NCBI GenBank assembly: GCA_022835595.1
Contig: BQUP01000003.1
Coordinates: 1,223,704-1,287,703 of the forward strand
DNA from: Cystobasidium ongulense
Taxonomy: Eukaryota; Basidiomycota; Cystobasidiomycetes; Cystobasidiales; Cystobasidiaceae
Reading direction: 5' to 3'
Length of the DNA: 64,000 nucleotides
Shown: positions 42,867-64,000 of the stretch, in pieces
Position numbering within the stretch: position 1 is the stretch's first letter
Layout: the number at the start of each line of letters is the position of its first letter
Notes under the pieces: generated by a model
The model's database searches: none
The model's input: the letters and a program-made list of their open reading frames with translations, nothing else
What the model was told of the DNA's origin: nothing
Program-made: the position numbers and the translations under genes

Positions 42867-44303
42867 TTACGCCTTTCTACTCTGCTCCAGCTCCTTTTCT
42901 ATGTAAAGGATCTCCTGTACTGCATCTCGGAACTTTTCGCCGGCTTCATCTGAGAGGCAAGGTAAAGGTCTACGAGGTGCCTTACCGTAGCCGTAAAGAT
43001 CGCCCAATAGCCACTTAAGGGAGGGAATCTGCCCTCGCAAAGTCACCAGCTGTTTAGCAGAGAACGCTTCTAACTTAGGGAGATAGCCGAAAGTCTGACT
43101 CACGCCAGCATCAAAAGCCACTGCATCCGCGCGAGCAAGGGCAGCTTGTAGCTTGACGGCTTCCTGCAAGTTCTCCCCTACGAGCGGACCTTGCGAGAGC
43201 TCCCATAGCCGCTGAGAGGCGTATGGCGCAAAGTTAGGTGGTCCACCAATGCAGCCATCCGCCCCCACGGCTGCTGCTGCCAGCACATTGTCTATGAGTC
43301 CAGTCAAGACGAGGTATCTGACCATGTTTTGCCGGTCAGCGAGGCTCGAGACATGCTGTACTTAGGGAACACTCACGGCGCATTGGCGTCTCTCCTCGGG
43401 TATCTCTTCTCGAAATCCTCGTTGTGAATGGTGCTTGCTAGCCGCGTAAGCTTTCCAAGCCCAGTACAGGTAAGCTTCACTCCACACAAGTTACTCGCTC
43501 TTTGAGCTGAATTCTCGAGGAGTTCTTGCGAGAAGTCCAGTCCTCCAGTAGCATATACCGAGTCATAGATCATGCTGCAAGAGTCCGAGAGCAGAGGAGA
43601 TTTTACAACGCGGCCATTTGCTAGTCAGCTACCAATCTCTGCTTAGCGAGGTGCGTCGGTGAGACTGACACTGGAACCGGGGAAGCTGCAGCTACATCGA
43701 CAAAATGTTGCTCCATTGAGCTCGAGCTCTTGATTATACCTCCATAGTACCCAGACATGACGATGAGTACCCCATCCGCTCCGGCTCTGGTAATTTAGTG
43801 AACTATCAGCGGCGGCATGCGTAAGTCTTGGCGGAGGAAACGTCACCTACGCTGCGGCATCGTTGCATAAAGATATAGTCTCTCGCGTGCTCGGTGCCCC
43901 TGCTCCTGCCACTATCGCAATTTCGGTCAGGCCGATATCGTCCAAAGCTTTCCTTGCTGTCTTGATGACTTCGATTCGCTCCTCCGTAGACTGAGCCAGG
44001 AAGCTGTCAGGATGCTATACCTGCAGTACCTAAGGAAGAGTGGGTGGCTCACTAGCAGCGTGGCTTCGCCCAGTGTCCCCGACACAACGGGCAGACAGCC
44101 AGCCCGAGCGATGTGCTGCACGTGCTTTGCGAATGCCGCGTAGTCTGCGAGAGCACAAAAGCGTCAGAACGTCTTGCGAAGGACCCGCTTTCAAATACTA
44201 GTGCAGCACGCTGCCACTCACCTATGTCCTCGTTGGCATCGAAGAAGCAGGGAACGGGACAATACATGCCTCGTGCGAGAGAGCGAGCTGCTTGTCGGGC
44301 CAT
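42867..44303 (-). CDS. DapA/dihydrodipicolinate-synthase-family aldolase or lyase, copy 1
   Basis: This is a class I (Schiff-base) aldolase/lyase of the DHDPS/N-acetylneuraminate lyase superfamily; fungi lack DapA lysine synthesis, so a catabolic role such as 2-keto-acid aldol cleavage is expected. The ATG at 44301-44303 opens MARQAARSLARGMYCPVPCF. The spliced product shows HIARAGCLPVVSGTLGEATLL (the GTxGE-type carboxylate loop), EERIEVIKTARKALDDIGLT, AIVAGAGAPSTRETISL, a Tyr-bearing PVLIYDSVYATGG and the Lys-bearing NLCGVKLTCTGLGKLTRLAS (presumed Schiff base), then GADGCIGGPPNFAPYAS and LKWLLGDLYGYGKAPRRPLP. Several short introns are present. The stop TAA is at 42867-42869. A CGG-N6-CCG element at 44469-44480 lies upstream. 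It is paralogous to the gene at 54377. Confidence 0.85.
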
Positions 44304-45044
44304 CTGTGGACCTTTTTGGTTGACGTTTGTTACTGGGATGTTGGGATATCGGGCGTGGAGCAGACTCAGAAGTCAGATGAACGCTTGTGAGGTATCGGCA
44401 GATGTACTGCCGCCAGCGACAAGTAGCGCTACGGTAAAATGGCTTTAAGCGAGCGCTGATGGCTTCTTCGGGAAATGCCGACACGAAGGTGGCGACCACG
44501 ATAAGGCAGGACAACAAGTTGGCCAATGTTCACGACAACGCCCTATGACCACTTCACGCCCCTTCTGCCTGAAGTTCAGGAGTACCTGTATGGCAACGGC
44601 TCGCTCCTTTGATTCTGAACCTGTCCATTGGTCCTGACGCTACCAGGTCAAGCTTGTACTTGGACTATGTACATGCGGCAACCTCGGCATCACATTCAAA
44701 ACCATATCATGCTATGATATGCTGGTAGGTAAAATTGATTGAACCCCTTGCACGTATGCGCTGCAACAACAGTGATATGGCTGAGCACAAAGTCAAAAGG
44801 GTGCCTGTCTTCGGAATGGGTTCCACCTTAGTAGGCTACACAAGGCGCGAGCTGATCTCGTTCTTCATCAAGTCCTAACGAAGGAAGGCGTTTGTAGATA
44901 TACATGTTTTCGGTATAAACTGTACAGTTGGTGCTACTCTCGCTCGACCTTCAACCTTGCGAGCCGTTGGCCACTACAACTTAGCCTCCCGGTCTGTTAC
45001 AAGGAAGGGAAGAATAAGTTACTCGCCAGCTGATAATTTGGGCA
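44304..45044. promoter_or_regulatory. Upstream region of DapA copy 1
   Basis: These 741 bases precede DapA copy 1 (minus strand) and follow the DUF3830-like gene. The palindromic CGG-GAAATG-CCG at 44469-44480 lies 166 bases from the DapA start and closely resembles the elements at 47478 and 56163. The remainder holds no supported ORF. Confidence 0.55.
44469..44482. promoter_or_regulatory. Candidate Zn2Cys6 binding site (CGG-N6-CCG) upstream of DapA copy 1
   Basis: CGGGAAATGCCGAC: inverted CGG halves separated by six bases, with the shared core AAATGCCGAC found in other promoters of this block. It is 166-180 bases before the DapA copy 1 ATG. Function is inferred from the repeat only. Confidence 0.5.
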
Positions 45045-45568
45045 CTACCGTTGAGTGACGAGCTTACCTGATGCTGTAACCAACTCAAATTTGACAGACT
45101 GCGCCCCTCTCCAGAGAACTTTCTTGCCGATTTCTTGGAGTCTTTCTTGTCCTTTGTATACGGTGAGGAAGTGATTCCCTGCAACCTGGCCAACGATGCC
45201 TGCGTAAATTCAAGACTGATATCAGCCGTCATGCGAATGGTGTACAATACTAGAAGAGCCGCACTTGAGAAGCTGCACGCGCCGTACGCTAGGAGGACCT
45301 CTGTCTCGCTGATACCTCCAGGATAAACGATAATCATGCCCGGCGCGGGGTGCGAGGTCGGATTTTCGTGCGGAAGCTTGAGGTCCTCGTTGCCCAGTGG
45401 GATCCAGACAGCTTCTCCAGACCACCTAACATGGATCACCTTCTCTTTATATGGTAAAAGAGACTTGAACCACGCGACCGTCTTGGGCGCTGCGGACGAC
45501 TCGAATTTGGCATAGAGAATGATCTCGTTGTTCACTGTGATCTTCACAGCTTCGTTGTTGGCAACCAT
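45045..45568 (-). CDS. DUF3830-like small protein (cyclophilin-like fold), about 150 aa
   Basis: The start is taken as the ATG at 45566-45568 (MVANNEAVKITVNNEIILYA), because the recognisable domain begins there; the frame stays open upstream to about 45838. The product shows FESSAAPKTVAWFKSLLPYK, VIHVRWSGEAVWIPLGN, LPHENPTSHPAPGMIIVYPG, EVLLAYGACSFSS, then, across an intron (about 45208-45275), VAGNHFLTVYKGQERLQEIG and KKVLWRGAQSVKFELV. The order of motifs (APKT, HVRWSGE, NPTSHPAPG, AYG, AGNHF, GR/KxVLxxGA) matches my memory of the DUF3830 family, mostly bacterial and archaeal small proteins with a cyclophilin-like fold. The stop TAG is at 45045-45047 if the last GTAAGC is not used as a donor. 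The role is unknown. A CACGTG at 45654-45659 and ATGCCGAC at 45668-45675 lie upstream. Confidence 0.65.
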
Positions 45569-45943
45569 GCTCAAAGTCTTCTGAAGGCGAATTGGAGAAG
45601 AAGAAGCAAGCTGGACAGAAAGGCCAAGGCAGATAAAGAACGGGCAAACTGAGCACGTGAAGGTGAGATGCCGACGAATCCGACACTTCCGCCACAGGTG
45701 CAGGAAATGTCTCGAATATTGCCTGAATACCAGCACGCTTAGCAGAGGTATAGGAGACACGACGTCTATTAGAACAACGGCTGTATACCAAATTGGGGCC
45801 AGAAAGACTCGCAGGCATACGTCGGCAAGCAAGTACATTTTCAGGGAGCAAAAAGTGTATCCTGGAGCGAAATCTCTCTCAGGGATGCCAAGTATGGCCG
45901 TACAATATCCTACAGTCTGCTAAAGCTACAGATGGTTACTAGG
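45569..45943. promoter_or_regulatory. Upstream region of the DUF3830-like gene
   Basis: These 375 bases separate the DUF3830-like start from the TauD stop, both on the minus strand. They hold a CACGTG (45654-45659) directly followed by ATGCCGAC (45668-45675), a half of the shared cluster element. The open frame upstream of the chosen start has a hydrophobic, protein-unlike composition. Confidence 0.45.
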
Positions 45944-47215
45944 TCAGCATAGATTGAGCATTACCCGCATATCGTCTCGCTGGCACTCTCCATCGTCCTC
46001 TTCAACCAGAGCAGGGATGGGCTTGTTCGCAATGGGTGTGATGCGGATGGCATGTCTTCGCTCGCCCGGTGCATAGTCGAGCGTTTGGGAGTGGTTCGTG
46101 ATACGCTGATCCCACACACAGACGGTGCTGCGTGACACAAAGTTATCTGTGTCAGCAGCAGCCCATACCCAGCACCGAGATCATCCACAGGCACTCACCC
46201 TGCTTCGTAACGAATGCGGCATTGGAAGTCCTGCCCTCGAATAATGTGGTCAAAGAGGAATTTGAGCAGGTACTCGCTTTCTTCGACATCGAAACCAACA
46301 ATGCTCTTTGTGTAGACTGGGTTGACATAGAGTGCCTTCTGCTTTGTGACTGGATGTACGATGACTACAGGATGCGCTGTCTCGATAACTTGTCTTCGTA
46401 AGACCGCATCTTTGCCATTCTTAAGCTCCGCAGCGACGCCATCATTGTTGGTATGAATAGCGTAAAGGCCCTCGAGGCGTTTACGGAACTTGGGTGACAA
46501 ACGCTCGTAGGCACGAACGCTGCTGGAGAAGATGGTGTCTCCGCCTGCTCCCGCTGGAGACTCGAGCATCATGAAAAATGTGGTCCCAGGCGTCTGTGGT
46601 TCTGGAGACTGGTCGGTGTGAAATTGAATGGGAGACTTGCGCGCCCAAGATTTGCGTACACGGAGGTCGTCTCTGCTGTCGTACACGACCATGAGTTCGG
46701 GCGGGCCCTGCAAACAGCAATAGATAGGTTAGCTCCAATGATATTGCGCTTGCGGTATCAGGTATAACACTTGCATTCGCTGGATGAGGGGCCCAGCCGT
46801 GGACGTGGAGTGGGCCAAAGTGGCTGACGATCCGCTTCTGCTCTTCCATGCCAATGTCGATGAACTTCTGGTCTCGGAACACCAGCGCTCCTCGTTCAGC
46901 GGCCATGAGTGCGAGCTCATCGAGCCCTTTCCCGTCGAGGTCGGATAGCTGCACACCATGGATCTCGGTGCCGACTGCAGGTGAGATATCGACGATTCTG
47001 GTGGCAGTGGCTAAAAGATTGGGCTTTGCTGGATCTGCTCGATGTCCTGGGTCATCGTGCTCGAAGAGACCTATCTCCTCAACCTTTTCTAGCGGGTCAT
47101 ACAGCGGCATGTAGGCTGGGTATAGTGGCGTGCCATCTGGATTGACAGGCCGCTTCAAGCGGGCAGTGTGGTCGAGGGGTTTGGGTGCGCGGCTATGTTC
47201 TACTTGAATTCCCAT
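45944..47215 (-). CDS. TauD/TfdA-family 2-oxoglutarate dioxygenase, JLP1-like
   Basis: This is an Fe(II)/2-oxoglutarate dioxygenase of the fungal JLP1/taurine-dioxygenase type; relatives oxidise sulfonates, sulfate esters or other small acids. The ATG at 47213-47215 opens MGIQVEHSRAPKPLDHTARL. Family text follows: YMPLYDPLEKVEEIGLFEHD, DISPAVGTEIHGVQLSDL, ERGALVFRDQKFIDIG, VSHFGPLHVHGWAPHPANA, PELMVVYDSRDD, IQFHTDQSPEPQTPGTTFF (H-x-D iron ligands), TIFSSSVRAYERLSP, VIVHPVTKQKALYVNPVYT, and VCVWDQRITNHSQTLDYAPG followed by RRHAIRITP (distal His and 2-oxoglutarate-binding Arg). Two introns are clear (46712-46772 and 46132-46197). The stop TGA is at 45944-45946. It is divergent from the hydantoinase-like gene, 380 bases away. 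The length of about 380 residues fits, and all ligands are present. Confidence 0.88.
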
Positions 47216-47595
47216 GGTGGCTATGGAAGTGGAAGAAAGCTGTTTATTGTTAGGAAGGAGATGTAAAGGCGAAGATCAGTCTACCAAATTAGCAAAGGTG
47301 AGTTCCAGAGGGAAAGTCGGAAAGGTCGGTAAAGGAACGCTCGGTCCGAAGCGAATCCAGTCGATGGGTCAAGGCAGGCTTGGAGTTATCTATCTTCGGC
47401 AAGAAGTTGCCTAATTTACGGAAACCGAGAAACACCCGGCATTAATTCCTGCTTATCTCGTGCCTTCGGGTTGTGCTCGGAAAATGCCGACCGCAGACAG
47501 GCGGGCCAGGCGAGGACGAGCGTGTGGCAGAGACAGCCAGACGACAAGGCAGAAGCCAGGCAAGGACAGCACGAGACTCAGCCACACACAGCTAA
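47216..47595. promoter_or_regulatory. Bidirectional promoter between the dioxygenase and cyclic amidohydrolase genes
   Basis: These 380 bases separate two divergent starts. They contain CGG-AAAATG-CCG at 47478-47489 and GGTCCGAAGC at 47343-47352, the latter also present at 54276-54285 in the other bidirectional promoter of this block. Shared control of the pair is likely. Confidence 0.6.
47478..47492. promoter_or_regulatory. Candidate Zn2Cys6 binding site (CGG-N6-CCG)
   Basis: CGGAAAATGCCGACC contains inverted CGG halves spaced by six bases. Its last 14 bases are identical to 56164-56177 in the permease promoter. It lies about 105 bases before the amidohydrolase ATG and 263 before the dioxygenase ATG. 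Confidence 0.55.
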
Positions 47596-49964
47596 ATGAT
47601 GTACGACCTCATTGTAGTGAATGGCCTGGTGAGCACCGCCAGCGATATTGCGTGAGTGTCAGATTGCGACTCGGTTGCGCTGGACTGGCGAAGCACGAGT
47701 GACGCGCGAGCTGACAGACGACGGCACTACTATGCAGCCAGGTCGACGTTGCAGTGCAAAATGGAAAGATAGCCTTCCTTGGGAAGGTCCGGCAGGAGCA
47801 GCTTGACGGAGCGCGGCAGGTCATTGACGCAGAGTGAGTTGGCTGCAGTTGCTGGCGGACAGTCAGCATGAACGCCCAAGCTGACCTGAGTGGTTTGCGT
47901 CTCTCTAGCGGTGGTCATGTCTTCCCAGGTGGCAGTGAGTGACCCTTCCTTTTTTGGTGCACACGGCCCTAGCTTGTCATGCATGTGTCGTGATCTTCCA
48001 CTTGCTGGCTTGCATGTTTTGATGAGTTACTCTCCCTCTCTCTCTCCAGTCGACGCCCATGTCCACATCTCGCAGGTGGGCACAGCGACTTGGTTCGAGA
48101 GCCCAACGAAAGAGACAGCTGATTGAAGGGTCGGCCGGTTGGCTGCGGCCTGATCTATTGCGCAGGACTCGGGTGCTGCCAAATGCTCAGACAATTTCGA
48201 GACGGGTTCGAGGAGCGCTGCAGCGGGCGGCACGACGACCTTTGTCTCCTTCGCATGCCAGAATCGAGAGGACCCGAGCCTGCTTCAAGTCGTAGATGAC
48301 TATCGTAAGGTCTCCGTAGAACTCGACGCGTGTCGGACGTTCGCTGATGCTGCTTTATGTACTGTAAACTGATGCTTTACTTGTGCTAATTCTTGCTTGT
48401 ACTCACGTACGCACGCACACAGACAAGCAAGCCGACTCCACAGGAAGCTACGTCGACTATGGCTTCCACATCATTATAACAAATCCAGGACCCCATGTTA
48501 TCAAGGATGAGATACCAACACTAATGAAGCGAGGGGTGTCGTCATGCAAGCTCTTTGTGAGCCGCGATTTGCTACGCCTCGTCGTGACCCTGATCTAACT
48601 GAAGCCTCAATACCCACTGTCGAGCAGATGACCTATGACGCGATGAAGCTCCGCGACGACCAGCTGCTTGAAATCATGCTGGCTGCTCGACGGTGTGGCA
48701 TGACCACGATGATGCACGCTGAGAACGGGGACATCATCAATTGGCTGACCGAGAAGCTTGAAGAGCGAGGGATGCTAGGTCAGTGCTGCTCTCTGCCACG
48801 AAACCTGCATGGCAATACCATGGCTGATCACCAAAGCCTGCTATAGATCCAGTCTACCACGCTTGGTCCCGACCGCCGGCCGTAGAAGCAGAAGCCACGA
48901 ACCGCGCAATGGCACTGGCCGAGCTTGTCGATAACCCAATACTCTTCGTCCACGTCAGTGCAGCTGACGCAGCCACTGCGATCCGAAACGCACAAACTCG
49001 AGGCGTGCCTGTATTCGCAGAAACATGTCCGCAGTATCTTTATCTCACATATGCCGATCTGGAAAAATTTCATGATCCAAATTGCTTCGAAAATAGCAAA
49101 CATGTTTGCTCACCTCCTCCTGGACCCGATGGACAAGACCACAAGGCTATTTGGCGGTGAGATGTCATCTTGAGCGGAATGATAACCTGTGACTGATGAC
49201 CTCCGCCTCCAAACAGCGGCTTGCAAAATGGAACCTTCACAATCTTCTCATCTGACCATTGCCCTTACCTGTACGATGACGCTCAAGGCAAGATTCAAGG
49301 GATTCTCGAGCACGAACATGTTCCAGCTCCTGAGGACAAGGATTATAAGGGCTTTATGAAGACAAAGAAAGGACACTTCAAGTGAGCTTTCGATGGTACT
49401 GAAGGCGTGGCGGTGTCAATGCTCATCTTGATATCTTGTACGCGCAGGCATATCCCAAACGGCTGTCCCGGAGTAGAGACGCGCTTGCCTCTGCTATATA
49501 AAGGGCTGGAAGAGGGCCGCCTCTCGCCTCAGCGGTTTGTAGAGCTCACGAGCACGAATCCAGCCAAGCTCGTGAGTGTCCATGCCTGGTTCTAGATGAA
49601 GTCGGTAGGACAAGACTGATCACCAGCTCAGTACGGCATGTATCCCAAAAAAGGGTGCTTGCTGCCAGGTTCGGACGCCGACTTGACAGTCTGGTACCCT
49701 CCCAAAGCCAAAGCGCCTTTCACTATCACCAATGCCAACTTGCATCATAATGTTGACTATACGCCCTACGAAGGAACGCAGGTCACCAACTGGCCGAGGT
49801 ATACCGTCGTGCGTGGGAAGGTAGTATGGGACGGAGACCAGCAGGCAATAGTTGGGTCGCTGGGAGATGGGCAGTTTGTGGCGAGAGGCCCATCGCAGCT
49901 TTTCACGCAGTACGAAGGGCGTGCTGACGACAGTCGCCGGACGGCAAGGTGGCTTCACGAGTAG
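47596..49964 (+). CDS. Dihydropyrimidinase / hydantoinase-type cyclic amidohydrolase
   Basis: This is a binuclear metal amidohydrolase that opens cyclic amides such as dihydropyrimidines or hydantoins. ATGs at 47596 and 47599 open MMYDLIVVNGLVSTASDIAQ. The product continues VDVAVQNGKIAFLGKVRQEQ, GGHVFPGGIDAHVHISQ (H-x-H), SDNFETGSRSAAAGGTTTFV, GVSSCKLF (presumed carboxylated Lys), MMHAENGDIINWL (His), DNPILFVHVSAADAATAIRN (His), FAETCPQYLYLTY, FTIFSSDHCPYLYDD (catalytic Asp), HIPNGCPGVETRLPLLYKGL, TSTNPAKL, MYPKKGCLLPGSDADLTVWY and RYTVVRGKVVWDGDQ. At least seven introns are present. The stop TAG is at 49962-49964. All metal ligands are visible, so it is likely active. Allantoinase is a related alternative, but the overall text is closer to dihydropyrimidinase. 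Confidence 0.88.
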
Positions 49965-50139
49965 TCGCAGTCGCATAGCCCGAGCAATCCAGTGTCCGAC
50001 TTCAGATGCCAGATCATTGATGCGGCGATAAGCGCACCTGACTTTGTCGATCGCGTTTGCGATAAGGTGGAATTGCCGGGCTTTTGCAACTTTGCTTTCG
50101 ACTAATCTGGATTGTATTGATGAGAGCACGCGAACAGCG

Positions 50140-52765
50140 ATGCACGAAGGGAGTACCGCCGCCAATGAGCAGTATGGCACCCTGCTTGGCATCGCAGACC
50201 AGCGGGCCTCTGTGTCCCAAGCGAGGCCCCAGAGAAGTCCTTCCAGCACTCCAGCGGCGGCGGCGAGAGAACGGCCGTATCCGCGGAGAGCGGTGAAAGC
50301 CTGCGATCCATGCAAGAGCAAGAAGCAGAGGTGTACAGGGCCCAGTTCGGTACCGTGCACTCGCTGTGCAGTTGCAAAGAGGCCATGCTCGTTCGAGAAA
50401 GACTTTGTGGGCACTTTGGAGGGAAATCGCCCGGTGGCCTTTTCGCTGCAGATACTGCAAGACATGCAAGCAGAGTGAGTGAGCACGACGCTGACCACGA
50501 CAGGTGCTTTGTGTGTTGGGCTGGCTGATCGATTCTACCGATAACGCGATGTCAGCCTTTTGCAACAACGACAACGCATTGAGAATCTGGAAGCTCTTCT
50601 TGGAGCTCGGCCGGGCACAGCCTATGAGCATGACGGCGACAACACGATGACTGCGAACAGCGAAGACGAACAAGAAAGTCCAGGAGCCTCTGCATTGTCC
50701 CACTTGGATGGCAGCAGGCAGTCTGGATCACATGCAATCTTGCCACTCGACTCCCTGGAATCGTTTCATGATCATCAGCACGCAGCTATACCGTCAGCGG
50801 CAGCACCTCCTTTGTCGTTGAGGGAAGTTCAGTCAGAAGCTCCGACTGGCGTCTTGCGCTTCCTTGAATCCCGAACGGATGCACAAACAGCGCAGCACTT
50901 GGCCGCCAGGCAAGATCCGGTGAAGCTGGGTCTACTGAACATGAACGAAGCTCAGCAGCTCTTCGACATGTAAGTCCTAAGTAACGGATATGACAGCCAA
51001 ATAATTGTATAACCGCTGACTATGCCTTGTTACGCAAGTTTCTGGACATGCTGTCATCGAACTTGCTCCTTGCTGGATCCAGACACCCAGCGACAAGCCT
51101 TTCAAGTCTCCTCAGTGTCTCCGCTATTATTCAGTGTCATTTTGAGCGTCGCAGCCCGCTTTTGGAACGTCAAGGACTCGACCAAATCCATCCTGCATCC
51201 GCTGTATTGGGAAATGGTCCAGGTTGTGGACGCCTCTATCTCAGAGCTTCTCCTCCGCCCGCCAGCTTCCTGCATCTGCTTGGAATCCATACAAGGGTGC
51301 GAGATACGTGACCATCTAGAGCTGAGAGAAACTAAGAACGGACTGTCGATCTAGCCTCCTCTTATATTGCCAATACTCACCATTGCAACCCATCGGGCCT
51401 GATGGTGTTGCGCGGACACGGTTCAGTGGCAGTGGAGCGTGGGTACGTCCACATTCACACTTTGCCGCCATCTACCAGAACACTCAAACTGCTAAAATAT
51501 ATCCGCAGCTCGCCATCAGTCTCGCTTTACGGCTGGCAAAGGTCCTTAATCTATCTCAGCGGGCTGCGAGCTTTCCAGCCATGTCATTGGATGTAACTCC
51601 GGATGACATGAAACATATGCGCGTATGGATCAATCTTCTATCAGCAGACGCCATCTTGTCTTTATCGGCAAATTTGAGTCCAACCATGGATCCGACTATC
51701 GCCACTCGAGCTGTGCGCGACTATGAAAGCCACGACAGGAGTTTGCCGCTCGACAAAAGAATGGCGGGCTTATACGAGGTCGTCTTAATCACTCACAAAC
51801 TGTCAAATAATGGCCTAGATTTGCCTCTGGCGCAGATCGGTACCGGCGCATTGAAGAGGGTGAATTTAGAGCTTGATGAGTGGGAAAGATCGTGGAACAG
51901 GAACCTAGGTACGTGCTTCCTGTATGTTAATAACCACATTCTTCTGATTCACCACTTCCATAACAGCCAACTCAATCGATGCCGACCCTGAAGCCCAGTT
52001 TGTTTTCCCCATCACTACTGCGCGGTGGTATCGCTTAGTTCTCAACTCGGCATCTACAGGCGCATACACTTCGAACCCCTTCAGCCAGGCTCAAATATCG
52101 CTGCAGACAGGGTCATTGATGATTGCAGTCACCGCCGCAGCTCAGACACTCTGGCGATTCTCTCTCGAATCAACGGTGGACGAGGATGGCGATGGATGGC
52201 AAGCTACTTTCTCAGCGCCGTTGACAGTCAACAATGCAAGAGCTCGCGTCTTGGCCTACTCTGTAGATTCTTAGTAAGAGCAGTGTCCCTAAAGTTTGGA
52301 TACGTTTAGCTCACGAGTGTGGAACAGCTGGCTCACTCATAGCTTCTCCGCGATCTTGTTGGCAATCGCTTTCGACAAAGGCGCAATCGATGGTAAGCTA
52401 TTTCGCCACCATATGACTGACTATTCCCTGACTAAATTGTCGGTAAAGAGTCACTGCGTCTGCAAGTTCCTCCACTGCAGACGCAGGCATCTCCCAGCTC
52501 ACCTGTACTACGACTGCTTTCTCTAGCTTTGGCACTGGTGGACTCGATTATCGGGGTTGCACTGCACCACCCTGCAGCGGCCTACCGACCCTTCTTCCAG
52601 AGGGCACTGCAGACATGCACGCCCCTCGCTGCTGCCACTGTTGAGCAAGACGACTCGATTGAGCAATTTTTGCAACAGCTGAACGCGAGCAACAATTTCG
52701 ACCTAAGCGCCTTCAGCAACACCATGTTTACACAGCCTTGGGATGTAGGTACATGGAACGTGTAG
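50140..52765 (+). CDS. Zn2Cys6 fungal-specific transcription factor
   Basis: This is a Gal4-type regulator, probably controlling the surrounding catabolic genes. The first ATG in frame is 50140 (MHEGSTAANEQYGTLLGIAD). The zinc cluster reads ACDPCKSKKQRC, then CTRCAVAKRPC (C-x2-C-x6-C ... C-x2-C-x6-C). A short leucine-rich coiled coil (LLQQRQRIENLEALLG) follows an intron. The middle-homology region starts FWTCCHRTCSLLDPDTQRQ, SPLLFSVILSVAARFW and continues with IYPQLAISLALRLAKVLNLS and MRVWINLLSADAILSLSANL. Further exons read ANSIDADPEAQFVFPITTAR, RLVLNSASTGAY and TLWRFSLE. The last exons carry SLRLQVPPLQTQASPS and a hydrophobic, Gln/Asn-rich tail that may activate. The stop TAG is at 52763-52765, 35 bases from the opposite-strand dioxygenase stop. 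Around seven introns are present. Confidence 0.85.
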
Positions 52766-52800
52766 TGAAATGTGATGCAGGCTAGATACAAGCCGGCAGA

Positions 52801-54095
52801 CTAGGTGGACCTAGCGTAGGACAAGACGGTCTCGTATTGTTGAAGCCCGTCATCCTCCCTGACGATCTTAATCTGACCGGGCTGTCCCTTATCTACCGCA
52901 GCGGATTCCTCCATGGGCACACCAAGTGCAAACGGGCCATCATCTACGACGGTCGCTCGACGCACATCTCGAGCGTAACCTTCGCCATCAAATAATGTAG
53001 CTCTGTGCATCGATTGTCGGTTGTCCCACCAGACGAGATCACCAGCATTCTTCCATTCGACTTGGAAGGTGTATTGAGGCTGAGTGCAGTGTTCCATGAG
53101 CTCTTTGATCAACTTTTGACCGTCTTCGTCTGACATCCCCAAGATCCGCTTGGCATGTTTAGCGAGGTAGAGGACTTTGCGGCCATCTGGCCCGGTCTGA
53201 ACCAACTTGTGGCAAGAGGGAGGCTTTGCCTTCTTCTCCTCTTCCGTCGGCTCGGCGTAAAAGACTGGCGAGGCGAGCTTCCGGGAATACCATAGACTGG
53301 TAGGAGAAGGAAGTCAGCCGTGTCGGGGTTTAATAAGTCTGAACACAATTTGCACGCACTCGTGCTCAACAATCAAATCTTCTAAGGCTGCTTTGGTCGA
53401 TTCTGGGAGCCCTTCGTATGCTCTTCTGGTGTCAGCAAACCAAGTATTCGCGACGCCAGGCACTGCTCCGGCATGGCAGCAGAGGAGAGAATATTTTGCC
53501 CGAGGTGCGCTGTAGCTGGAATCGGTATGCCACAGCGCGTTGCCAAGAGAGTGGTGCCAGCGCCGCTGCAAGCTTGTGTCGGCATGTCACACCATTGATT
53601 GAGAGAGCAAAGGTACTCACGCTGCCTTTTTTGACGACGCTACCGTCCAACTCGATGCTGGTGAAGAGAGCCGCAGGTCAGCACAGTGCATCGCTTTTGC
53701 AGTACCAGCTAGGTAGTAAGTATGATCAACCAGTGCAACTCACTTGCCAACATCAAATAGGTAGGGCGTCCCCAAGCGCTGCGCCATGGCGTAGACAGGG
53801 TTCTTCTCTAAGGCTTTGCCCAGTTGAGCGGCGAACGCCACATGCTTATCATTGTCTATGGCCGTCTTGCGAAAAATCGTGACGGCAAATCGGTCCTGTA
53901 GTTCAAGAAGCTGATAGTGCAGGTTTTAGTATGGGTAGGGTTGCCTTGAAAAGCTCAAGAGGATTCAACTGAGCGACGCACCGTTTCGATAGTGTTTTGC
54001 GGTACAGGTTGACTAAAATCAACACCCTCGACTTCAGCGCCGAAGCCGCCTGCCAGTGGCTTGATTGTAAGATTGTTGATAACGAAGGATTCCAT
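52801..54095 (-). CDS. TfdA-like 2-oxoglutarate dioxygenase
   Basis: This is a second TauD/TfdA-family Fe(II)/2-oxoglutarate dioxygenase, closer to TfdA (2,4-dichlorophenoxyacetate dioxygenase-like) than to JLP1. I use the ATG at 54093-54095 (MESFVINNLTIKPLAGGFGA, then EVEGVDFSQPV), where homology begins. The frame is open upstream to an ATG at 54345-54347 with an Arg/Ser-rich, targeting-like sequence, so a longer form is possible. Landmarks: FAVTIFRKTAIDNDKHVAFA, ALWHTDSSYSAPRAKYSLLC (H-x-D), GVANTWFADTRRAYEGLPES, YSLWYSRK, LYLAKHAKRILGMSDEDG, LVWWDNRQSMHRATLFDGEG (distal His) and RDVRRATVVDDG (Arg). Three or four introns are present. The stop TAG is at 52801-52803. It is divergent from DapA copy 2. 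Confidence 0.85.
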
Positions 54096-54376
54096 GCTGC
54101 TTGCTGTGATGCACCTTGAGACTTGTACGTATGGTTGAGCAAGAAGATTGTCTGGAGCAGGCGCACTCTCCCCATTTGCCCTTGGTGAGTCCGTGATGCG
54201 GATCTGCGCTCCCGACGTTTCCGACGTTGCCGCTGGCCTTTTCGGCAGGCCCGATAAGCCAAGCGAGGTGCGGCTGGTCCGAAGCAGGGGTGTGCCACAG
54301 TGTTGATGGTGCTTACTTGCTCGTATTGCAAGTTGGGTACTGAGCATCAAGCTGCTGTTAAGTCTACCTTGTCAGC
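54096..54376. promoter_or_regulatory. Bidirectional promoter between the TfdA-like and DapA copy 2 genes
   Basis: This region carries three CCG triplets at exactly nine-base spacing (54212, 54221, 54230; CGG-N6-CGG-N6-CGG on the minus strand), a CGG-N5-CCG at 54271-54281 and GGTCCGAAGC at 54276-54285, shared with 47343-47352. If the dioxygenase starts at 54347 most of this is its coding sequence. Confidence 0.5.
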
Positions 54377-55823
54377 ATGAACGGCCACGCCACCCGTCAG
54401 CTGCGACCAGGCGTCTACTGCGCGCTGCCGTGCTTCTTCGATGCCAAAGAAGATATTGGTGCGTAGCCTGCTCCTGAACCCGAGCGAGCGAGGTCTCTAA
54501 CGAGTTGAATACAGATATCAAGGCCTTTGTACAGCACCTGCTGTGTGAGTGGTCAGATGGGGGTTTAGGGAACTGCGCGACACCCGCTGACCGCTATCAC
54601 CTGCATGCAGATGTGGTCAAGGGAGGATGCTACCCAGTCATCTCGGGATCCATGGGCGAGGCCATTCACCTCGTTAGTGCTGCCCTGCTCTCGCTGTCTT
54701 GCCTTGCCTTGCCTTGCACTGTGCTGACCTCGCTTCGCCAGACCTCGCAAGAACGCTGCACCTTGATCCGCGAATCTAGAAAGGCGTTGGATGCCGCTGG
54801 CTTTGGGGATGTCGGCTTGCTCGTCGGCGCAGGTGCACCAAGTACCCGAGCTACCATCAAGCTGGTCAAAGAGGCAGCGGAGTGAGTTGCTCAGGAGGAA
54901 GGACGTTCTCGAGAAAGCACAATTGACCCGACAGTTCCTTGGTACATCTACAGGGCCGGCGCAGATCAAGTGATGGTCATTTTGGACGGGTACTATGCTG
55001 GCCTGCTCAAAGCGAACCCACAAGCTATCAAGCGACACTTTATCGAAGTCGCAGAAGCCTCTCCCGTGCCTGTCATGCTGTACAATTTCCCAGCTGTCAC
55101 CGCAGGCATCGACCTTTCGCATGATCTCGTCGAAGACATCGCGAGAGAGGCGCCGAACACTTGCGGCATCAAGCTCACTTGCGCTAACGTCGGAAAGCTC
55201 ACGCGCCTCGCCGCTGTGGTCCAGTCATCCGAATTCCAAACGAAGCACCCGCGAAAAGACCCCAACGCGCCGTGAGCTGGTCAAGCTGATGCAGTATACA
55301 TAACCGAAAGAAAACAGCTAATTGCCGCGAACTTGTCAGATTCCTACTTCTGGACGGTCAAATCGATATACTGCTTGCGACAATGCCAGTAGGAGCAGGG
55401 GGGTGTATAGGGGGTGTGCCTAACTTTGCACCAGTAAGTCCACCTCCCTCGGGGCGCCCTGAGACAAGGACCGAGTTAACGGTATGACCGACAGCTTGTG
55501 TGCGCAAAACTGTGGAAGCTATGCACAGCAGGACTAGAAGGACAAGCACTTTATGAAGCGCGCCAGCTGCAGGCAGTCGTAGCCCGTGCAGACTATTTTG
55601 CTTCTGGCACAGGCGTGAGTAATTTGGGATATTAACGCACAACGCCAGCCTGACATCGATTTAACAGATACCCGGCATGAAATGGGCCTTGAATGACTTG
55701 TTCGGATACGGCATTTCTCCTCGCAGGCCTTTGCCAGCGATGGGAGATGCTGCTGGTAAACAGTTTATGGCAAACTTGGAAGAGATATTAGCCCTCGAAT
55801 CGCAACTAGCAAAAGTGTTATAA
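54377..55823 (+). CDS. DapA/dihydrodipicolinate-synthase-family aldolase or lyase, copy 2
   Basis: This is a paralogue of the gene at 42867-44303. The ATG at 54377 opens MNGHATRQLRPGVYCALPCF. The spliced product shows HLHADVVKGGCYPVISGSMG (GSMGE loop), LTSQERCTLIRESRKALDAA, VGLLVGAGAPSTRATIKLVK, AGADQVMVILDGYYAGLLKA, SPVPVMLYNFPAVTAGID (conserved Tyr), NTCGIKLTCANVGKLTRLAA (presumed Schiff-base Lys), LLLDGQIDILLATMPVGAGG, CIGGVPNFAPL and MKWALNDLFGYGISPRRPLP. Five or more introns (for example starting at 54460 and 54883) are present. The stop TAA is at 55821-55823. The residues of DHDPS-type catalysis are retained; the substrate is unknown. The permease follows on the same strand. Confidence 0.88.
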
Positions 55824-56367
55824 AGGCAGGGATACGCAACGTAGTCTGTATATTTTGCAGATGTAGCATCACATACCGATCTATCATTTGCTCGGCAATC
55901 ACCTAGCTGCATTTGGCCATGCTGTACAAGGCTTACGCCACAACGTCGCCGACAGCGCTCGCTGTCGGGACATTCAAAGATCGGGATACTTGCCGGGCCT
56001 GGGTGCTCAGGCCAGAGTCTCACCAATCTCCAGCACTGTCATTGGCTGTTGTCGTGTCTTTCGTTTCCGGCAACCCTACGGTACTTCGGGAAAGGCCTCA
56101 TTGGCTCTTATCTTTGGGCGTTAGGCGGCGGCCGGATTTACTCCCAAGAAATTCGGGATCTTTGGAAAATGCCGACCTCTTATCTCTTCTCCTACAATCT
56201 TTCAGGGAGGACTGCATCTTGCAGTCGGCAATCGCCGTGATGGGCCCGCGAGCTGTTATCCTCACGAGCTGGTTCCAATTCCTTCAAAAGCGGGATGTTC
56301 GCTCTCCCTTTCCAGCTTCTCTCTGTCAAGCCGCACCTTTGCCTTATCACTCGATAGGCTCTTCAAG
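55824..56367. promoter_or_regulatory. Upstream region of the MFS permease
   Basis: These 544 bases contain GGAAAATGCCGACC at 56164-56177, identical over 14 bases to the amidohydrolase promoter, and a TTCGGGAAA word at 56085-56100 also found at 44467-44475. The open plus-strand frame 55913-56380 is not protein-like. Confidence 0.5.
56163..56177. promoter_or_regulatory. Candidate Zn2Cys6 binding site upstream of the permease
   Basis: TGGAAAATGCCGACC lies 190 bases before the permease ATG. The right half (CCG) and the spacer match the site at 47478 exactly; the left half is TGG instead of CGG. Confidence 0.5.
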
Positions 56368-58485
56368 ATGTCGCACCTAGACTCACCTACAGCCTTGGAC
56401 CCAGTAGAAAAGAAGGGACTCGATGTCGAAGCTACCATCGTGCCTCACCTGTCACAGTCCGAGCAACTCGAATGGTCCGAGTACACCTCGCTCAAGGAAC
56501 ATTACGATAATGATCCCAAGGCCTACAAGAAACTGATCCGGAAGAGTGAGCATGCGATTCTAGAAGTGGCAACGCGAGCTGTACTAACAACGCGCTTGCC
56601 CTTTCAGTGGATATTCGAATTGTTATTTACCTCTGGGTAAGAGCAGCCGCACTCCCAGCTTGCGGTATCTTCACTGGAACACGGTTCTCTCCCCACAGTT
56701 CATTTACCTAATGAACGCCCTGGACCGCTCCAACGCTGGCAATGTCCGAATCTATACCTTTTTCAAAGACACGGGAATGACAGACTCCCAGTTCACTACT
56801 GGTCTTACGATCTACTCCTGCTTGTAGGGTCGGGTCTCGAGCCAAACACAGTGTCAGTCTACTGACGCTCGTTGCGTATACAGCTATGGTGGCCTCGAAG
56901 TACCGGCGCAGCTTATCTTACAGCGCATTGGTCCAAAGTGGTTCCTAAGTACCATAGTCACTGGATTTGGTGTTGTTACAGCTCTACATACTGTCATTGG
57001 CTCCCGTAGGTCGCGCCGCACTTCTCCATATGCAAACGCTGAGAGTATCTGCCACCTCGCCAGACCGTGACTTCTGGATCCTCCGCGCCTTTCTAGGAAT
57101 CTTTGAAGCTGGTATCTATCAAGGATCCTTCTACGTTCTGTCAAGGTGGTTTCTACCGAGCGAACTTCAAAAACGTCAGGGTATCTGGTACACAGCCACC
57201 ATGGTGTCAGGAGCCCTAGGTGGCCTGATCGCTTATGGTGTAGGGGGGCTGCAAGGCCGTCTAGGTTACCAGCAGTGGCAATGGCTATTTCTCATTGAGG
57301 GAACGCTTAGTAAGCGCCCTTTCCTGCCTTTTGCCGCAACTACAAATGACGTGACTGACTTTCTAATCTACAGCTATCTTTGTCGGTGTCGTGGGATTCT
57401 TCCTTTGCCCCGGTCTTCCTGGGAGATGGAAGTCTCGTTTCTTCACCGCCGATGAAATGCGCTTCATGGACCTGCGTGTCAAATATAAAGACGGCCCCAT
57501 TCCTCCCCGAGATGTCTTCGAGAAGAAAGCCATGGTCGATGCCGCCGCAGACTGGAAGGTGAGATCACGGCACTCTGACGTTCGATGGGGCGCATCCATG
57601 CTGATATACCTCCTCTAGACATATATTCATGCATCACTCCTTGCCTTCGGTGGCTCTATTCCTACATACAGCATCAACTACACCCTTGCTCTGATGATTC
57701 GACAATTCGGCTACACTGCCATCAAAGCGCAAGCTCTCACCGTCCCTCCTTACATCTTCGGCAGTTTCTGTGTCCTCCTCGGTGCCTGGTACTCCGACCG
57801 ATACCAAAAGCGCGCCAAGATGCTTCTGCTCTCCTACGGTATCGGCATGTGCGGCATCCTTGTTGTCTGGCCTTGCCTTTACTTCCGCGGAACGGCTGGA
57901 GCAAGCTATGCTGCTTTGTTCTTCGTCGTTGGCGCCTTCAATGCTCAGGTGAGCCCTTCTCTATCAATGTCGTCCCTTGTATCTGCTTGCGAATCGCTGA
58001 TACCTTTGCGTATCGCTTCCTAATAGGGACCTGCCGTGGGTGCTCTCGCAACAAACTTCCGCAATCCTGTCAAGCGTGCTGTTGGTGAGTCCACTTACTG
58101 GTTCCTCGCTCAGATGGACCCCAACTAATACGTGTCTGACTCGCAGCAATGGGTATCGTCGGCACAATCGGTCAGATTATTGGGGGTGTTGGTGGTGCAG
58201 TAAGTCTGTGCATTCACAGGAGTCTTATGCTTGTGAGCTCATGATATTCTATTTCAGAACATCTTCCGAGCTTCAGAAGCACCAACATACCCGACTGGCT
58301 TTGGGGTCATTACTGGATCTGTCATTTTCGGTGGCGTACTGCCCATTTCTGCTTACTGGTACATTCTTCGCCGCGAGAATAAGCGTCGCGATGCCATGGC
58401 CGTCGAAGACATTAAGGCTCAATACACTGAGCAAGAACTGTCAGATATGGGAGAGCGCAGTCCGCTATTCCGATACGTTACTTAA
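56368..58485 (+). CDS. MFS permease, Dal5/allantoate-nicotinate-permease-like
   Basis: This is a plasma-membrane proton symporter of the anion:cation symporter (Dal5/TNA1) family, importing carboxylates such as allantoate, nicotinate or related acids. The ATG at 56368 opens MSHLDSPTALDPVEKKGLDV. The spliced product shows VDIRIVIYLWFIYLMNALDR, SNAGNVRIYTFFKDTGMTDS (the family DRxNxGNA-like loop), YSCLYGGLEVPAQLILQRIG, WILRAFLGIFEAGIYQGSFY, GALGGLIAYGVGGLQGRLGY, QQWQWLFLIEGTLTIFVGVV, FCPGLPGRWKSRFFTADEM, IPTYSINYTLALMIRQFGY, LLGAWYSDRYQKRAKMLLLS and VGALATNFRNPVKRAVAMGI. About nine introns are present; one in the second membrane segment (near 57000-57060) I could not place exactly. The stop TAA is at 58483-58485. 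The length of about 500 residues and 12 membrane spans fit. Confidence 0.88.
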
Positions 58486-58890: not shown

Positions 58891-59243
58891 GAGAAAGCTG
58901 CAAGCGCAATGACGTGCTACGAGATGGACTTTCCGATAAGCTTGCGCCTTTCACCTAAACTTGCTGATTTTCATAATGCCAGAAGTAAACTTCACGCCAG
59001 CGTCATTTGCGACTGTCTCGACGAAAGCCAGCAAGGGTCGCTTGCAGCTGACAGCTCCCAGCATGTTGTGTGTAGCAACAAGATTGCTTGGCCACTAGAG
59101 CACCCTGGCCCTTGTCGGCCCTTGTGGCACATATCCCACGAACCTACAGCATATCGTGAATGCTACCATCGACGCCGCTGCTAGCAGCACATTGCCTTTG
59201 GGCCCAGTCAATACGAGGTACTTGGTCATGCCTTGCCAGGTCC
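58891..59243 (-). pseudogene. Decayed third DapA-family copy
   Basis: The plus strand at 58891-58920 resembles the 3' flank of DapA copy 1 (42772-42801, sharing GAGCTGCAAG-like and GTGCTAC words). The stretch 58992-59060 resembles 43101-43170 (CACGCCAGC, then GCAAGGG-GCTTGnAGCTnACnG), and 59180-59243 resembles 43270-43340 (GCTnGCAGCACATTG, CCAGTCAA, ACGAGGTA). About 230 bases of C-terminal coding sequence are missing between the first two blocks, and no open frame joins them. It is closer to copy 1 than to copy 2. Presumably it is a dead duplicate. Confidence 0.65.
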
Positions 59244-61646: not shown

Positions 61647-64000
61647 TCATGGTACATTCGGTTGCTCCACCCCTAATCCTGCTGTATGATATTGAAACTT
61701 ATCGCGAGGAAGTGCTTTCGTGAGAATGTCGGCGTGATTGAAGTTTGTATCGAGATAGGCGACAGATAGCTCTTTGGAAGTGATGAGGGAACGGATATAG
61801 TGAAAGCGGAAATGAATGTGTTTCGTAGAATCGTGAGATGTTTTGTTTTTCGCCAAAGTGATTGCAGCTTGATTGTCGACAGCCACTGGAGTTGGAATTG
61901 AGATGGAATCGCTCATACCTAATGTGACAAGTGATCTCCGCTCCCACACTAAGTCTCTAGCAACATCGTCAAGAGCCATGTACTCCGCTTCTGCTGTTGA
62001 GTGTGCTTGAACACTTTGCTTTTTGCTCTTCCATCCAATGATTCCACCGTTGTACTTGACTATCCATCCTGTAGTAGATTTATAGTCTCGCGCGTCTGCG
62101 TTCCAGTCTGCGTCCACGTACGCTTGAAGTCCATCTTCTGTTCCACCTAATCTTATTCCATGCGTTCTGGTTCCAGCAATGTACCGTAGTATCCCTTTGC
62201 AGATCTCGAAGTGTTTCTCGGTCCATCCAGCATTGAAAGATGACATCCGATTGACAGCGAAGGTGATATCAGGTCGAGACATGGTAGACAAATATTGCAG
62301 GGATCCAGTCAGCTCGCGGTAAGGTAAATTCCGCGCAGCTTGAATATCTTCCGGATTGGGAATTGTTAAAGTGGATGGAACAGATGGTGACATTGGAACA
62401 TCACGAGTTTTGCAGCTGAGTAGCGAGAAACGTTCCAGTACTCTGTTTGTATATTGCATTTGAGTTATCCAGATCTTCTTTTCCGAACGGTTGCGATGGA
62501 TTTCCATTCCTAGGAAATGTTTAAGATCACCTTGTCTTTTGCAGGGAAAACGAGAATCGAGAACATCAATGAAGGCGTTGATTGATTCTTCGGAGTGTCC
62601 AGCAATTGCCTGGTCGTCCACATGCACATACAGCATCAACTGAATGCTCCCACTGTCTCCTTTGAGCAGGTAGACGCAAGCGTCGTCCTCATTTGCGATC
62701 CAACCTTTGCTTCTCAACCATCTATCTAATTCCTCATTCCAACATCTGCCAGCTTGCTTTAAGCCGTAGAGAGCCTTCTTGAGTTTTGCAATCTTGCCAT
62801 GACCTAGTTCTACTTCAGGAGGTAGGCGCATGTAGATAGTTTCATCGAGAGGACCGTGAAGGAAGGCTGTTGTGATGTCAAGACCTTTCAGTTCAAGATT
62901 GAGTGAAGCTGTAATAGATAGAAGAAGTCGGAACGACTGTCGGTGTCCAACAGGAGAGAAGGTTTCGAAGTAGTCGATGCCATGTCGTTGTGTGAATCCT
63001 TTTGCGCAGAGACGGGTTTTAAGTTTGTGGTCGCTGCCTCCAGACGGATCTATCTTGGTTGCGAGTACGAGTCGAGAGTCTATGGGCTTGTATCCAGAAG
63101 GGAGATCATTTCTGTCTATCAATTCCCAAGTTCCAGCTTTCTGAATACTATCTAATTCTTTTTGAAGACTTTCTCTCCAACCTTCTGCATCTGGTCCTTT
63201 CAGTGCATCAGTCATGTTGCGAGGCGTTTCCAGGGAGGTTACCATCAGTCCCAGCTCATCGCTTGACTCATCAGACTCGTTCAGGAGCGGCTCGTCGTGG
63301 ATTGTCATCGCTGGTGGTGAAAGTGTTCGTTGACGGATGGCAGCGCGAGTTCTGTTAGCAACAGGTGAAGGAGGCCTGAGAAGTTCATTATCATCATTGT
63401 CCGATTCGCTTTCTTCGTTCATCTCATTGGGTGGATGTTGAACAATAAGGTCGAGAGGCAGGTCATCTGCTTTTGTTGAGTTTTGCTTGGAAGGTTCTCG
63501 ATGTTCCGCTTCTCTTTCTTTCTCCCACTGAACATCGAGGAATTCCAAGTCGGGAACAGGATCACCTTTTCCAGGTATGTTCGACTCAACAAACCGGACA
63601 TCGCGAGCTCTGAAGAATCTCCCACTGTCTCTGTCTACCACGAGACAGTTGCTGGTGCCTTCTTCAAATCCAAGAAACGTTGTGAGTTCAGCTCTTGCGT
63701 CGAGTTTGCCCAACTCTCGATGAGCAGGCGGGACCCAAGTGTATGCAGCGCATCCAAAAACACGTAAGTGATCCGTTCGAGGTTTTCTTTCGAGAAGTTC
63801 TTCATGAGGACTGATTTCTTTTCCATTTCTAGGAATTCGATTTCGCAAATAGACAGAATGCGCTGCAGCGTATCCCCAATATTCACCAGGAAGACCACTG
63901 TCGAGCAGGAGAGTGCGAGCGTCGTTGAGGATGATGCCAATTCGTCTTTCTGCGAGAGCATTCTGGGCTGAAGTGTAAGGTATGGTTGTTCTGAACTCTA
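61647..64000 (-). CDS. Copia-type polyprotein: integrase end, reverse transcriptase, RNase H
   Basis: The open frame runs from the window edge to TGA at 61647-61649. In order it shows the integrase C-terminal region (TIPYTSAQNALAERRIGIIL, LRVFGCAAYTWVP, FLGFEEGTSNCLVVDRDS), an acidic linker, reverse transcriptase (TWELIDRNDLPSGYKPIDS, LCAKGFTQRHGIDYFETFSP, LDITTAFLHGPLDETIYMRL, KKALYGLKQAGRCWNEEL, LMLYVHVDDQAIAGHSEE with the YVDD-type catalytic pair, here as HVDD) and RNase H (LQAYVDADWNADARDYKSTT, IGWKSKKQSVQAHSTAEAEY, HFIHFRFHYIR-like tail, NHADILTKALPRDKFQY). No internal stop or frameshift is seen. This is a transposon gene, not a host gene. Confidence 0.93.
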   Translation of the reverse strand, partial: EFRTTIPYTSAQNALAERRIGIILNDARTLLLDSGLPGEYWGYAAAHSVYLRNRIPRNGKEISPHEELLERKPRTDHLRVFGCAAYTWVPPAHRELGKLDARAELTTFLGFEEGTSNCLVVDRDSGRFFRARDVRFVESNIPGKGDPVPDLEFLDVQWEKEREAEHREPSKQNSTKADDLPLDLIVQHPPNEMNEESESDNDDNELLRPPSPVANRTRAAIRQRTLSPPAMTIHDEPLLNESDESSDELGLMVTSLETPRNMTDALKGPDAEGWRESLQKELDSIQKAGTWELIDRNDLPSGYKPIDSRLVLATKIDPSGGSDHKLKTRLCAKGFTQRHGIDYFETFSPVGHRQSFRLLLSITASLNLELKGLDITTAFLHGPLDETIYMRLPPEVELGHGKIAKLKKALYGLKQAGRCWNEELDRWLRSKGWIANEDDACVYLLKGDSGSIQLMLYVHVDDQAIAGHSEESINAFIDVLDSRFPCKRQGDLKHFLGMEIHRNRSEKKIWITQMQYTNRVLERFSLLSCKTRDVPMSPSVPSTLTIPNPEDIQAARNLPYRELTGSLQYLSTMSRPDITFAVNRMSSFNAGWTEKHFEICKGILRYIAGTRTHGIRLGGTEDGLQAYVDADWNADARDYKSTTGWIVKYNGGIIGWKSKKQSVQAHSTAEAEYMALDDVARDLVWERRSLVTLGMSDSISIPTPVAVDNQAAITLAKNKTSHDSTKHIHFRFHYIRSLITSKELSVAYLDTNFNHADILTKALPRDKFQYHTAGLGVEQPNVP

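Follow-up and report, generated by a model that had tools for sequence, protein, structure and literature searches.

What task is served by a run of eight adjacent genes in the basidiomycete Cystobasidium ongulense that encode two DapA-family lyases, a DUF3830 protein, two 2-oxoglutarate dioxygenases, a hydantoinase-type amidohydrolase (HYD), a Zn2Cys6 regulator and an MFS permease? The genes occupy positions 42867-58485 of the window, the whole 64,000-nucleotide stretch analysed here (contig BQUP01000003.1, positions 1,223,704 to 1,287,703), which lies on contig C3 of a 19.77-Mb genome assembled in 19 contigs. They form a real and intact cluster. In the reading that we favour, with a probability of about 0.62, the genes serve the inducible breakdown of a small cyclic amide or ureide, probably a carboxylate-bearing one; the cluster is probably self-regulated. 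At the level of sequence, this reading draws on eight intact gene models, on amidohydrolase and dioxygenase motifs, on a matching tyrosine and lysine in the lyases, and on a predicted CGG-N6-CCG regulator site that is found in two promoters, with a near-copy in a third.

The first question is whether the genes belong together. Gene models were predicted by a small program trained on the window itself and then corrected manually; each of the eight is complete, with one to ten introns and a reading frame that stays open across plausible introns. The eight-gene set and the two bidirectional promoters named in a preliminary description of this DNA were both recovered, with Pfam domains for all eight proteins and two divergent pairs, JLP1|HYD and TfdA|DapA2, whose members are separated by 380 and 281 bp respectively. 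Its paired duplicates held for the lyases, DapA1 and DapA2 being paralogues with 50% identity. The dioxygenases were rejected as recent duplicates; they are 25% identical over 183 residues and have different best matches in the PDB. Across the genome, one DUF3830, two hydantoinase-type, four DapA and nine TauD loci were counted. Because such loci are few, chance grouping is unlikely; a crude random-placement model, in which the DapA pair was counted once and the locus counts are lower bounds, gives an estimate of ~1.3e-9. Codon use resembles that of the neighbours; those upstream were recognised by eye as ordinary genes, among them ones for a V-ATPase subunit, a glucan synthase and an F-box/JmjC protein. 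It is highly improbable that the cluster is real but decaying, once larger and now partly rearranged beside a retrotransposon: an apparent DapA relic and a Ty1/Copia-like open reading frame do lie downstream (Table 1), but all eight models are open, and the G+C content at third codon positions (GC3) is 0.54-0.62 in the cluster genes versus 0.52-0.59 in the upstream genes.

A shared promoter site connects several of the genes. The pattern CGG-N6-CCG occurs 11 times in the window, with three occurrences in the six promoter regions of the cluster against 0.43 expected. Two of these three, upstream of DapA1 and between JLP1 and HYD, share the longer form TCGG(R)AAATGCCGA, and a near-copy precedes the permease gene. 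Exact copies of the 14-mer number two in the whole genome, both in the cluster; with up to one mismatch there are 10, three of them in the cluster (a reversed-pattern control gave eight in the whole genome), whereas 0.006 would be expected there from the seven sites elsewhere in the genome, all these figures being descriptive and partly post hoc. Dinucleotide shuffling produced a 10-mer common to three of the six cluster promoters in 7 of 1000 trials. Contiguity and shared regulatory sites, as looked for in a co-regulated fungal catabolic cluster, are both found, the sites lying in three of the six promoter regions. Upstream of DapA1 there is also a second palindrome, CGGCAG-N5-CTGCCG (CGG-N11-CCG), at 44396-44412.

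The candidate reader of these sites is encoded within the cluster. The regulator has the six-cysteine pattern CX2CX6CX7CX2CX6C; its Zn_clus score of 19.8 is just under the cut-off of 21, and its Fungal_trans score of 27.9 is above the cut-off of 23. Ppr1 and UaY, Zn2Cys6 regulators of pyrimidine and purine pathways, are comparable in that they too are six-cysteine regulators and, according to the available part of one source, recognise repeats 6 bp apart (PMC4832277); Ppr1 is described in the accessible text of another as contacting mainly the CGG half-sites (PMC5729217). For the cluster regulator, contact with the predicted sites is what we infer.

Table 1. Coordinates of the cluster genes, predicted regulator sites and downstream features in the window (aa: amino acids).
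Feature	Position	Strand	Details
DapA1, DHDPS-family lyase	42867..44303	-	334 aa, 7 exons; Pfam DHDPS
DUF3830 protein	45045..45568	-	152 aa, 1 intron; stop codon ends at 45045; Pfam DUF3830
JLP1/TauD-type 2-oxoglutarate dioxygenase	45944..47215	-	377 aa, 3 exons; stop codon ends at 45944
HYD, hydantoinase/dihydropyrimidinase-type amidohydrolase	47596..49964	+	517 aa, 11 exons; TIGR02033
Zn2Cys6 regulator with Fungal_trans domain	50140..52765	+	722 aa, 8 exons
TfdA-type 2-oxoglutarate dioxygenase	52801..54095	-	339 aa, 5 exons; Pfam TauD
DapA2, DHDPS-family lyase	54377..55823	+	333 aa, 8 exons; Pfam DHDPS
MFS permease	56368..58485	+	517 aa, 10 exons; Pfam MFS_1
Regulator-type site TCGGGAAATGCCGA	44468..44481	+	165 bp before DapA1 start codon
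Regulator-type site TCGGAAAATGCCGA	47477..47490	+	JLP1|HYD divergent promoter; 106 bp before HYD, 262 bp before JLP1
Near-copy TTGGAAAATGCCGA	56162..56175	+	one mismatch, breaking the first CGG; 193 bp before permease
Apparent relic of a further DapA gene	59174..59242	-	78% identity to DapA1 over 69 bp, E 5e-9; just outside the cluster, downstream of the permease
Ty1/Copia-like open reading frame (by eye)	61647..63961		GC3 0.45, below neighbours

HYD scores 91.6 bits for Pfam Amidohydro_1 (cut-off 25) and exceeds the cut-off of the D-hydantoinase/dihydropyrimidinase model TIGR02033 (456.1 versus 393.25). Its best PDB match is the yeast dihydropyrimidinase of Lachancea kluyveri (2fty), with ~45% identity over the aligned parts of the yeast enzyme. 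The motifs AHVHI, CKLFMTY, MHAEN, FVHVS, SSDHC, CSPPP and IPNGC align with that protein and contain what we take to be the metal ligands and the ring-binding tyrosine, serine and asparagine. HYD thus has the metal- and ring-binding motifs of this enzyme and of D-hydantoinases, whereas its gene neighbours are different. It falls short of the dihydropyrimidinase subfamily PRK13404 (NF009941; 578.3 versus a cut-off of 647), to which a DUF3830-linked HydA from Azospirillum belongs (836.3).

The TIGR02033 result and the match to 2fty would also suit ordinary pyrimidine or hydantoin breakdown by a PYD2-type dihydropyrimidinase, with the other genes as incidental neighbours. We consider this unlikely, given that the shared promoter sites link DapA1, the JLP1|HYD pair and the permease, and that a second hydantoinase-type gene, on contig C7, has company that fits such a job better, namely a carbon-nitrogen hydrolase, a cytosine/purine-type permease and a DAO-type oxidoreductase (D-amino-acid-oxidase-like by eye). 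That locus, at 958104-975861 of C7 and hence outside the window, is a possible hydantoin-utilisation cluster in its own right. It resembles the cluster studied here in its hydantoinase-type gene (45% identical) and in a JLP1-like dioxygenase (41% identical); it differs in carrying the three genes just named together with a class II aldolase-type gene, and in lacking DUF3830.

Both dioxygenases belong to the TauD/TfdA family (PF02668), scoring 183.4 and 172.4 bits against a cut-off of 27. By motif (HxD...H), the iron triad can be assigned to H177, D179 and H329 in the JLP1-type protein and to H119, D121 and H272 in the TfdA-type protein. The first intron of the JLP1-like gene is of the GC-AG kind (46708-46774, GCAAGT...TTGCAG) and was needed to retain a segment of conserved appearance. 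The best PDB matches, TauD (1gqw) for the JLP1-like protein and a TfdA-type enzyme (5bke) for the TfdA-like one, raise the alternative of sulfonate or aryloxy-acid scavenging, in which the dioxygenases would catalyse the principal reaction, either desulfonation or cleavage of an ether, and the other enzymes would process the carbon remnant. This is unlikely: neither protein reaches the taurine dioxygenase cut-off (NF007104, 313; scores 147.6 and 114.3), and the hydantoinase and DUF3830 would be left unexplained.

The two lyases are members of the DHDPS superfamily (PF00701; 100.6 bits for DapA1 and 99 for DapA2, cut-off 22.1) and are 33-37% identical to two other loci of the same genome. An assignment to the DapA of lysine biosynthesis (TIGR00674) was rejected, with scores of 80.4 and 81.5 against a cut-off of 206.15. 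For both, the top PDB match is 3qfe, a putative DHDPS-family protein, and the next is the human 4-hydroxy-2-oxoglutarate aldolase HOGA1 (3s5n). A tyrosine and a lysine of each align with 3qfe; presumably these are the catalytic tyrosine and the Schiff-base lysine.

The permease scores 125.6 bits for MFS_1 (cut-off 33.4). Its best curated model is TIGR00893/2A0114, which we take to represent an anion:cation symporter family, at 139.8 bits and thus well under the cut-off of 395. As a matter of general knowledge, biosynthetic clusters likewise bring together oxygenases, a transporter and a Zn2Cys6 regulator, so that the oxygenases, lyases and amidohydrolase might instead build or tailor a secondary metabolite for export by the permease. 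Such a role is quite unlikely, as the Pfam results of the eight proteins include no backbone synthase, the best permease model is an uptake transporter (albeit below its cut-off), and hydantoinases and DHDPS-type lyases are mostly catabolic.

Taken as a catabolic set, the eight proteins suggest the following route, built largely from family membership. The permease would import a carboxylated cyclic amide or ureide, and the two dioxygenases may hydroxylate the compound or remove a side group. HYD, assisted by DUF3830, would then hydrolyse the ring amide. The two lyases could cleave or deaminate the resulting 2-oxo acid via a lysine Schiff base, giving pyruvate-type products. The order of the dioxygenase, hydantoinase and lyase steps is provisional. 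The embedded Zn2Cys6 protein would bind the shared predicted sites and switch the set on.

The most interesting part of the cluster is DUF3830. The protein clearly belongs to its family (PF12903; 99.2 bits, cut-off 26), and its gene is the only locus of this kind found in the fungal genome. The family profile matches PDB entries 3kop (5.5e-11) and 2nnz (0.0043), which we take to be cyclophilin-like; an AlphaFold2 model of one bacterial relative, run without an alignment, gave no confident fold, with a predicted local distance difference test score (pLDDT) of 38. Against 23 of 26 proteobacterial plasmid records, the fungal protein shows 52-64% identity at the best-matching places; the remaining three comprise two Paracoccus records with 37-39% identity and one short match. 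In an alignment of 23 sequences, 17 of the 22 prokaryotic ones are 45-61% identical to it and five are 23-38% identical. A scan of viral contigs for DUF3830 found no relative.

Where the gene came from is a separate matter. In a tree of 36 proteins, fungal DUF3830 sits on a long branch, which calls for the usual long-branch warning, at an unresolved fork with proteobacterial proteins. Transfer of DUF3830 alone into the fungus is possible but unproven. The idea that the fungus recently received the cluster as a whole from bacteria was rejected: among the plasmid records listed, identities are 30-31% for DapA2 (15 records), 33-39% for the TfdA-type dioxygenase (15 records) and at most 49% for HYD (30 records), and all eight genes contain introns.

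The prokaryotic neighbourhoods of DUF3830 bear on its function. From 38 plasmid records with a DUF3830 match, 19 regions were chosen by hand, from the top hits and for taxonomic spread; proximity of hydA was already visible from coordinates for H1, H2, H3, H4, H9 and H17 (H3 and H9 were not counted), and the neighbourhoods of H14, H16 and H17 were assessed by tblastn. A hydA gene lies within ~3.5 kb of DUF3830 in 8 of the 19 regions (H1, H2, H4, H12, H17, H18, H20, H23) and another ring amidohydrolase in six more (H7, H8, H10, H26, H28, H32), giving 14 of 19. Neither is that close in the other five (H6, H14, H16, H25, H29), although a Zn-dependent hydrolase lies close by in H25 and H29. Seven regions contain a DapA-family gene, and the trio of hydA, DUF3830 and DapA is present in six, from four genera. 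These operons, on plasmids of Azospirillum, Aureimonas, Agrobacterium vitis and Paraburkholderia, resemble the fungal cluster in that a hydantoinase/dihydropyrimidinase, DUF3830 and a DapA-family lyase are close together, accompanied by a transporter and a regulator. They differ in having FAD-dependent oxidoreductases and ABC importers, and the annotation of the regions inspected includes no TauD-type dioxygenase; two of their DapA proteins are 24-29% identical to the fungal lyases where a match was found. On a plasmid of the haloarchaeon Halalkalicoccus jeotgali (locus L096, 6477-11878), DUF3830 adjoins an amidohydrolase gene and lies near the urate-degradation genes uraD, pucL and uraH.

Several observations weigh against the catabolic reading or its extension to DUF3830. 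The promoter-site pattern was chosen after these promoters had been seen, half of the genes, namely those for DUF3830, the regulator, TfdA and DapA2, have no such site upstream, and position 6434, outside the cluster, has a copy with two mismatches. DapA1 deviates from the YNFP motif (YDSV). The Pfam results for the eight proteins include no carbon-nitrogen or M20-type hydrolase, so that the breakdown of a urea-type ring would depend partly on genes elsewhere; a carbon-nitrogen hydrolase gene is present on C7. As for the plasmids, three of the six trio regions are near-identical Azospirillum operons, in a sample picked by hand. An even draw of 289 genomes of one bacterial class contained 27 with DUF3830, at 35 places. 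In the 30 loci examined by tblastn, which cover 34 of these places and are in some cases cut by contig ends, only one (L069) had a hydA-like gene nearby, along with an M20-type hydrolase, and only one (L066) had an allantoinase-like gene. The nearest same-strand neighbours of DUF3830 in this draw (nine of the 12 listed, plus one second neighbour) belong to mixed Pfam families or to none, with one M20-type hydrolase among them. On the tree, hydA-linked DUF3830 proteins require five label changes; a count as low came from 358 of 500 shufflings, so that the real labels do no better than shuffled ones, though a single origin is not strictly ruled out. The association is therefore a feature of accessory operons and does not hold for the DUF3830 family at large.

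Two broader suggestions of the preliminary description can be judged in this light. Its idea of one pathway with its own regulator and permease is backed by the genome-rare site before three promoter regions and by the metal- and ring-binding motifs of HYD. Its guess of a cyclic amide as substrate gains from the DUF3830 neighbourhoods on prokaryotic plasmids, but gained nothing from the even draw. A bolder version of the cyclic-amide or ureide reading, which we regard as tentative and on balance doubtful, would make DUF3830 an unrecognised working part of ring opening across bacteria, haloarchaea and fungi; it might, for instance, act as a cyclophilin-fold isomerase or hydrolase partner of hydantoinases. 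In this version, a fungus would have obtained DUF3830 from proteobacteria and reassembled the bacterial hydantoinase-DUF3830-DapA module from lyases, 2-oxoglutarate dioxygenases, a permease and a Zn2Cys6 switch of its own, and the result would be a catabolic pathway that has yet to be described.

As far as we are aware, the nearest described fungal system in its logic is the hxn nicotinate-degradation system of Aspergillus nidulans (PMC9304392). According to the available portion of that source, it likewise combines a specific regulator, MFS permeases, a cyclic-imide opener and a 2-oxoglutarate dioxygenase, HxnY, to which its authors could give no direct step. It differs in that HxnS, X, V, W, M and N, as described there, come from other enzyme families, HxnM resembling a peptidoglycan deacetylase and not a hydantoinase, and no DUF3830 or DapA-type gene is named in that portion (PMC9304392). 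Within the open-licence literature, judged by title and the start of the abstract, nothing of apparent relevance was found on fungal hydantoinase, dihydropyrimidinase, dihydrodipicolinate/allantoate-permease or hydroxyoxoglutarate-aldolase clusters, and no paper was found on DUF3830.

Catabolic clusters that include their own regulator are already known from fungi, whereas no description of this gene set was found in that literature. The cluster presents a regulator and a site that can be tested together, and feeding tests can reveal which substrate its pathway uses. It also gives the unstudied DUF3830 family a testable role, because the gene sits near ring-opening enzymes both in this fungus and on a number of prokaryotic plasmids.

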